33,077 nucleotides of DNA from an uncultured Lachnospiraceae bacterium (GTDB lineage: Bacteria > Bacillota > Clostridia > Lachnospirales > Lachnospiraceae): positions 1 to 33,077 of the forward strand of contig CALWSC010000071.1 of assembly GCA_944384105.1 (NCBI GenBank), given 5' to 3'. Shown here one piece after another: positions 24,148 to 26,392 of the stretch. Under the pieces are notes generated by a model. It made no database searches and was not told the origin of the DNA. It saw only the letters and a program-made list of their open reading frames with translations. Numbering within the stretch: the first letter of the stretch is position 1; every line of letters starts with the position of its first letter. The position numbers were made by a program, and so were the translations under genes.

Positions 24148-26392
24148 GAGCGGAACGAGCAATGACATCCAGCTGCTGCTCGCGGGTCAGGTCGATGAAT
24201 TTTACAGCGTAACCGGATACACGGATTGTAAAGTTTGCGTACTCCTCTTTCTCCGGATGCTCCATAGCGTCGATCAGCTTATCTACGCCGAAGACATTGA
24301 CATTCAGGTGATGCGCTCCCTGATCAAAATAACCGTCCAGAACGTGAACCAGATTGCTTACCCTCTCCTCATCGCTGTGTCCGATCGCACCCGGATTGAT
24401 AGTCTGCGTGTTGGAAATTCCATCCAGTGCCCAGTGATACGGAAGCTTAGCCACTGAGTTCAGGGATGCCAACAGACCGTTTTTCTCAGCTCCGTAGCTC
24501 GGGTTTGCTCCCGGGGAAAGCGGCTCACCGCCTTTTCTTCCATCCGGCATCGTTCCAGTAGCCTTGCCGTATACTACGTTGGAAGTGATCGTCAGAATTG
24601 AGGTTGTCGGCTCGGAATTTCTGTATGTGTGATACTTCTTGATCTTATTCAGGAAGGTGTGCAGCAGCCATACCGCAATATCATCCGCACGGTCGTCGTC
24701 GTTTCCGTAGCGCGGGAAATCGCCCTCAATCTCATAGTCTACCGCCATGCCGTCTTCGTCACGGACCGCCTTTACTTTCGCGTATTTGATCGCGGACAGG
24801 GAGTCTACCACATGAGAGAATCCGGCAATACCGGTTGCAAATGTCCTTCTGACATCGGTGTCGATCAGAGCCATCTCAGCAGCTTCGTAATAATATTTGT
24901 CATGCATGTACTGGATCAGGTTCAGAGTATTTACATAAAGACCTGCCAGCCAGTCCATCATTCTGTCATACTTTTTAATTACCTCATCATAATCCAGATA
25001 TTCAGAAGTGATCGGCTTATACTCCGGTCCCACCTGCACTTTTGTCTTCTCATCCACACCGCCGTTGATCGCGTAGAGCAGGCATTTTGCCAGGTTTGCG
25101 CGCGCTCCGAAGAACTGCATCTCCTTTCCTGTCTGAGTTGCGGATACACAGCAGCAGATGGAATAGTCATCCCCCCATACCGGACGCATCACATCGTCGT
25201 TTTCGTACTGGATGGAGCTTGTCTTAACGGAAATGTAAGCTGCGTATTTCTTGAAGTTTTCCGGCAGTCTGGAGCAGTATAATACTGTCAGGTTCGGCTC
25301 CGGAGCCGGTCCCATGTTCTCCAGTGTGTGCAGGATACGGAAATCTGTCTTCGTTACCATGGAGCGTCCGTCCTGTCCCATACCTGCGACCTCCAGCGTT
25401 GCCCACACCGGATCGCCGGAGAACAGCTGATTATAGGAAGGAATTCTCGCAAATTTTACCATGCGGAACTTCATGATCAGATGGTCAATAAGCTCCTGCG
25501 CACCTTCCTCGGTCAGCGTTCCGTTTTCAATGTCTCTCTGTAAATAGATGTCCAGAAATGTGGAAATACGTCCCACGCTCATAGCTGCGCCGTTCTGAGT
25601 CTTGATGGCTGCCAGGTATCCGAAATACAGTCACTGTACCGCCTCTTTTGCGTTCTTTGCCGGCTCGGAGATATCATAACCGTATTCTGCAGCCATCTTC
25701 TTCATATCCTGCAGCGCACGGATCTGCATCGTGATCTCTTCTCTCTGACGGATGATATCGTCTGTCATCATGCCGCAGCCGCAGTTCGCGAGATCTTCTT
25801 TCTTCTCCTCCACCAGGAAATCGATTCCGTACAGAGCCACTCTTCTGTAGTCGCCCACAATACGTCCTCTGCCGTAAGTGTCCGGAAGACCTGTGATGAT
25901 CTTATTGTGGCGCGCCACCTTCATCTCCGGTGTGTACGCGTCAAAGACACCCTGGTTATGTGTTTTATGATATTCTGTAAAGATCTTATGCAGCTCCGGA
26001 TTCGGAGTATATCCGTTTGTCGTGCATGCTTCCTCCGCCATTTTGATTCCGCCGAACGGCATGAACGCTCTCTTTAACGGCTTGTCTGTCTGTAATCCCA
26101 CAACCTGCTCCAGATCCTTTAAGTTTTCATCAATATATCCCGGTTTGTGGGATGTGATCGTAGATACGATCTCAGTATCCATATCCAGGATTCCGCCTTT
26201 TGCGCGCTCCTCCTTCTGAAGTGCAGACAGCGCTCCCCAGAGCTTTTTTGTTGCCTCTGTGGGACCTGCAAGGAACTTTTCATCTCCGTCGTACGGCTTA
26301 TAGTTATTCTGAATAAAGTCCCTTGTGTTTACTTCCTCCTTCCATATCCTGCCTTTGAAACCGGTCCATTGCTCGAATGTTTTTGTGTTCAT
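24134..26392 (-). pseudogene. pflB: Pyruvate formate-lyase gene with in-frame TGA
   Basis: Formate C-acetyltransferase converts pyruvate and CoA to acetyl-CoA and formate in fermentation. The continuous frame of 752 codons is intact except for TGA at codon 254 (25631-25633), where the family reads QW(T/L)YFGYLAA and this sequence reads [15 protein letters not shown]. A single TGG to TGA change explains it. Both halves look fully conserved: the catalytic pair Cys414-Cys415 (CCVSA), the glycyl-radical Gly727 (RVSGYAVKF) and the pre-stop region. ATG is preceded by AGGAGG. It may be a nonsense mutation, a sequencing error, or a UGA decoded by readthrough; other genes here end in TGA (yitT), so the code is not generally changed. 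A ZTP riboswitch and promoter lie upstream. Confidence 0.85.

Follow-up and report, generated by a model that had tools for sequence, protein, structure and literature searches.

An in-frame TGA at a conserved tryptophan codon of an accessory pflB in an uncultured Lachnospiraceae bacterium

Introduction

When a bacterial gene is intact except for one in-frame stop codon, is that stop read through, or is the gene simply off? The question is raised by a gene for pyruvate formate-lyase (PFL) in an uncultured Lachnospiraceae bacterium, where a single TGA stands at a codon for tryptophan. The gene lies in a stretch of 33,077 nucleotides, referred to here as the window, of a draft genome that consists of 123 contigs and is 78% complete.

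Belinky et al. (2021, PMC7918605) have searched constrained bacterial genes for in-frame stops and, as their text describes it, required a stop in at least two species in order to remove sequencing errors. The pflB gene resembles their cases in having one stop in an otherwise constrained gene, and TGA leaking to Trp is among the mechanisms that their text discusses.

Results

A single TGA interrupts the pflB frame

The pflB frame (formate C-acetyltransferase; 26392-24134, minus strand) runs over 752 codons from ATG to TAA and contains one internal stop, TGA at codon 254 (25631-25633, minus strand), at the position of a conserved Trp. This was the sole break claimed in the first-pass annotation, and it is found exactly there. 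Its context is cag TGA ctg, so that the base following the stop is C. When read through the TGA, the frame scores 1169 bits with NCBIfam TIGR01255 (curated cut-off 994), as a full-length PflB does, but it is not one uninterrupted reading frame.

Pfam recognises PFL in both halves flanking the TGA. The 5′ ORF (25631-26392, minus strand) would yield the expected truncated product, a PFL N-terminal part of 253 aa that covers model positions 4-259 of 647 in PF02901. The 3′ ORF (24134-25582, minus strand; 482 aa) starts at the next in-frame ATG, codon 271, and retains the Cys pair and an intact Gly-radical domain (PF01228). No ribosome-binding site is evident ahead of that ATG when the sequence is judged by eye.

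The surroundings are those of a regular pfl locus, and two of their features had been correctly read in the first-pass annotation. The intact pflA for the PFL-activating radical SAM enzyme (23374-24168, minus strand; TIGR02493 above cut-off) overlaps the end of pflB with its longest frame, and a ZMP/ZTP riboswitch lies 5′ of pflB (26521-26604, minus strand; Rfam RF01750, 52.4 bits against a gathering threshold of 39). Genes of the pfl type are expected downstream of a ZTP riboswitch. This riboswitch is the 'pfl motif' (PMC2864571). Compared with E. coli PflB (PDB 1h16) and with the pflB-pflA loci under ZTP riboswitches, the window pflB is alike in frame length, the Trp, the Cys pair, the Gly-radical domain and the 3′ position of pflA, and differs in the one premature TGA.

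The stop is private to this genome

Codon 254 is TGG in all 82 other loci aligned at the site, namely 80 loci of genome_contigs and two split-type PFLs, one of the host itself (contig C70) and one of the congener G001. For this comparison 85 loci were taken in, the window's own among them, and two short pieces ended before codon 254. Among distinct relatives, TGG is present in 88 of 88 and TGA in none, which confirms the Trp identity proposed for the codon; 20 of the 29 family-search loci, those in minus-strand orientation, were left out of this 88-relative comparison and of the substitution-ratio comparison below. The corresponding residue of E. coli PFL (1h16) is W as well.

When 397 genomes of the family were searched (336 with a match), the window pflB was the only 752-type copy with a stop among the matches listed. 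The other pflB entries of at least 74% identity, again among the matches listed, are without a stop in 112 of 112 cases by hand count, and a TAA in frame occurs there in G087, in a PFL of a different type with 66% identity. A 32-base sequence spanning codon 254 had no exact match in viral_contigs, and no second strain of the host species was found among the genomes compared. Thus, while the cases of Belinky et al. (PMC7918605) are defined, according to their text, by stops common to at least two species, the pflB stop is private to one draft genome and shared by 0 of 88 relatives.

Is it unusual that the stop falls on Trp? Single-base changes can create a stop in the pflB frame by 291 routes, nine of which are TGG to TGA, and by transitions alone there are 42 routes, including the same nine. 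A random nonsense mutation of transition type would therefore turn TGG into TGA in roughly one case out of five, an unremarkable rate. As to the leaky UGA-C context put forward in the first-pass annotation, C does come after the TGA, but it is merely the first base of the next codon for Leu and is C in 63 of the 88 relatives. Because this following codon is mostly Leu CTN, the leaky tetranucleotide is no selected feature.

The event in pflB is not old

Sites were counted as conserved when no fewer than 98% of the other sequences share the same residue. The window PflB deviates at none of the 275 such sites beyond the stop and at none of the 100 ahead of it, while the other 88 sequences deviate on average at 0.8 sites after and 0.5 sites before the stop position. 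By itself this is a weak test, since zero deviations after the site are also found in 44% of the other 88 sequences. The nonsynonymous/synonymous ratio of the 3′ part is 0.077-0.138 against the eight nearest relatives, comparable to the 0.084-0.132 of ten control pairs among relatives.

The lack of decay beyond the TGA, with Cys pair and Gly-radical domain retained, thus stands as it had been described. Judged by this pattern, pflB is excluded as an old pseudogene and the event in it is not old. The further argument, that conserved halves speak for function, does not hold: change is equally lacking 5′ and 3′ of the stop, which says only that the event is not old, and a recent stop would give the identical picture, so that an intact 3′ part is no proof of function.

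UGA is a stop codon in the host

The host has an RF2 gene that scores above cut-off and keeps the CTT TGA C frameshift site. At this site, UGA-C termination is presumably used for RF2's own control, and its retention implies that UGA-C is a working stop. There is no UCA anticodon at the 44 tRNA loci of the host; tRNA-Sec and SelB were found only below cut-off, in a genome whose incompleteness means that absence is not final. TGA terminates 117 of the 376 long ORFs scanned over 0.94 Mb of host sequence.

If UGA were read as Trp genome-wide, it should turn up at Trp positions of other genes. Of 657 genes of the congener G001, 249 were aligned to 1.24 Mb of host sequence (88,979 aligned columns), using non-overlapping longest ORFs to guard against shadow ORFs and leaving out pflB, which G001 lacks. 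At Trp positions of G001 the host has TGG 816 times, and none of its 30 internal stops (13 TGA, 15 TAA and 2 TAG) is at Trp; these stops come mostly from low-identity frames that resemble shadow ORFs, a few of which were inspected. By these signs, UGA is a genuine stop codon in the host.

In the reverse control, with 251 host genes aligned against G001, four TGA were found at Trp positions in G001, whose tRNA-Trp matches that of the host. Two of them (L254) run antisense to a G001 ORF of 552 aa; the 206-aa host frame behind them has no Pfam match and probably represents a shadow ORF. A third (L278) does fall in a real gene (PF10418, PF00970), but at alignment column 27, within an N-terminal overhang that precedes the first domain and overlaps the next gene. 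A TAG at Trp (L284) is likewise upstream of the domain, in an MBL-fold gene. The three of the four TGA that were inspected are therefore taken for artefacts, antisense or N-terminal overhang, and were given no weight as evidence for UGA as Trp.

In-frame stops of other kinds were seen on host contig C15 (L181 (G000:C15) 4432, 9153, 9378). A sigma-like gene has TAG at a Glu inside Sigma70 region 2 and TGA at an Arg before the domain, and a YjbR-like gene has an in-frame TAA at a Gln. Both genes are 95-97% identical to the congener copies, and their families were assigned from the intact copies of G001. Scans of coding potential for further same-frame gene breaks, over 0.94 Mb, were run at thresholds that failed to recover pflB itself and are therefore uninformative.

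A 4-bp anticodon stem in the tRNA-Trp of the host

In the sole tRNA-Trp(CCA) found in the host (G000:C58:238-310, L106), the top anticodon-stem pair is a mismatch, C27.U43, which leaves a stem of 4 bp; A9 and G24 are present as well, the positions being given in what we take to be the canonical numbering. With its open top pair, 7-nt loop and neither A9C nor G24A, it belongs to the 'Blastocrithidia-like' class of 4-bp-stem tRNA-Trp(CCA) as defined in PMC13092985 (NAR 2026), which by the account given there makes up 2.0% of tRNA-Trp(CCA) genes. The same source reports that a 4-bp (C27A) tRNA-Trp(CCA) promotes UGA readthrough in E. coli, and cites a G43U form as experimentally shown to read UGA. 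Unlike the systems that it describes, the host has the standard code, with no sign of genome-wide UGA as Trp.

How special is this tRNA to the host? Seventy tRNA-Trp loci were compared, 30 of them best matches and 40 hand-picked further down the list; one, cut by a contig end (L357), was read by eye and the other 69 were scored by script. The top pair is open in 18 of the 69, in 15 as C.U (the host, the congener G002 and 13 further genomes, with A24 in two of the 13), frequencies that are biased towards similar sequences by this sampling. The tRNA-Trp of G001, read by eye, is also C.U. Two genomes (G103 and G394) combine a C.U tRNA-Trp with an uninterrupted pflB of the same type. Since the mismatch recurs in the two congeners and in 13 more of the genomes sampled, it is older than the TGA and a permissive background rather than a matched adaptation. 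Even so, with a 4-bp-stem tRNA-Trp, leaky readthrough of the pflB UGA has a physical basis, and the allele could be leaky against this background.

An accessory cassette in a genome with a second, split PFL

The pflA-pflB-riboswitch cassette (23319-27148) is absent at the syntenic place in G001, where its flanks (window 21001-23318 and 27149-29512) adjoin with about 72 bp between them, so that 3.8 kb is missing exactly there (L323). In G002 a glycogen-debranching gene is present in a different context, and no pflB-type match was found. The two congener genomes are 84% (G001) and 83% (G002) complete. A repeat search found no long repeats matching across the two cassette borders, and the plasmid collection had no match to the pflB DNA or to the remnant ORF described at the end.

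A second, naturally split PFL is encoded elsewhere in the host genome (G000:C70:26413-29560; L158:614-3761), as a large part, GrcA3 and an activase. The large part (693 aa) ends before the Gly-radical domain and has TGG at the equivalent of codon 254; its closest solved structures are PDB 38la and 38lb. GrcA3 is a separate protein of 80 aa (NF038360, 170 bits against 158), and the locus has its own activase, with pflA overlapping. This is the same arrangement as that of a truncated PFL plus GrcA3 (NF038360). The split falls at the glycyl-radical domain and is unrelated to the TGA of the window pflB. GrcA-like matches occur in 303 of 397 genomes of the family (E ≤ 1e-15), C-termini of full-length PFLs included, and no description of split PFL or GrcA in Lachnospiraceae was found in the literature, judged on titles and the beginnings of abstracts.

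Readthrough had been thought to matter for formate supply in the first-pass annotation. It need not: a second PFL is encoded on C70, and G001 is without the cassette.

Discussion

What, then, is the TGA? Most probably it is a recent, lineage-private change from TGG. Either it is a real nonsense allele, carried by the whole sampled population or by some of it, or the draft assembly has a consensus error at this codon. The choice of mutation or sequencing error as the simplest explanation is supported by the privacy of the stop and by the meaning of UGA in the host. If the allele is real, most ribosomes would terminate at codon 254 and leave a stub of 253 aa that lacks both the active-site Cys pair and the glycyl radical. 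The window pflB would then be off, or merely leak through the near-cognate tRNA-Trp(CCA), while pflA downstream of the stop may still be translated. The cell would tolerate the allele, since pflB belongs to an accessory cassette and the two-piece PFL, made up of a large part and GrcA3, comes with its own activase and may substitute for it. Taken on its own, the case is an ordinary one: an accessory gene in a draft genome that carries a nonsense allele or an error.

A pure consensus error, with TGG in the organism, is a sub-case that carries about a third of the weight of this explanation and, taken alone, is unlikely. It would suit a fragmented and incomplete draft, an isolated single-base change with no further damage in pflB, and a species for which no second genome was among those compared. 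A real allele, however, would look the same, so that the two are not told apart by the sequence pattern, and deep short-read assemblies generally contain few substitution errors in their consensus. Two points go against both forms of this explanation, allele and error: the stop is at a Trp, the native residue, which a near-cognate tRNA-Trp would reinsert, and the tRNA-Trp is of the readthrough-linked type. They would fit a leaky but functional readthrough in which the 4-bp-stem tRNA-Trp(CCA), the only tRNA-Trp found, puts Trp at UGA-C often enough for a useful, reduced dosage of PflB, and the intact constraint 3′ of the stop and the readthrough reported for related tRNA forms (C27A, and G43U as cited, PMC13092985) are in line with it. 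We nevertheless regard functional readthrough as improbable. Internal stops in the aligned genes are not at Trp (0 of 30 in 249), no relative has the stop as the two-species rule of PMC7918605, in its text, would demand, the tRNA feature recurs in other sampled genomes and coexists with uninterrupted pflB in G103 and G394, and the frameshift site of RF2 speaks for UGA-C as a working stop.

The remaining readings are less likely still. An active PFL assembled from the 253-aa and 482-aa pieces has a parallel in the split PFL of the same genome, although that one is split at the Gly-radical domain. Here the frame breaks inside the PFL-like domain (near Pfam model position 259 of 647) rather than at a domain edge, and no ribosome-binding site is evident at codon 271, both of which make a working two-piece enzyme unlikely, indeed very much so. 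Selenocysteine or a reassigned UGA would also place an in-frame UGA within an otherwise intact gene, but the chance of either is next to negligible. Selenoprotein synthesis is opposed by tRNA-Sec and SelB scores below the cut-offs and by relatives that have Trp, not Cys, at the site; recoding is opposed by the retained RF2, the lack of a UCA tRNA at the loci found, the wide terminal use of TGA and the lack of UGA at Trp in 249 genes.

Preferring a recent nonsense allele or error, we note a broader idea that is no less doubtful than functional readthrough of pflB. A standard-code clade with a 4-bp-stem sole tRNA-Trp might read UGA-C as Trp at a low but useful rate. In dispensable enzymes such as pflB, UGA in place of a Trp codon would then be a tolerated, dosage-lowering allele and, within one gene, an early step to UGA reassignment. 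If the clade's tRNA-Trp does keep UGA alleles functional, a natural case of UGA readthrough in a bacterium with the standard code would be open to a simple reporter test.

Other features of the window

At the right edge of the cassette, an open stretch of 111 codons without a start (26806-27138, minus strand) is likely a gene remnant with homology to longer frames. Pfam gave no match on it, and we take it to resemble part of HipA-type proteins. Its identity is 30-40% to parts of open frames of 176-453 aa in 5 of 60 other genomes. Elsewhere in the window, a cobalamin riboswitch (11699-11903, minus strand; 104 bits) lies 5′ of an uptake set of periplasmic-binding, FecCD and ABC-ATPase genes.
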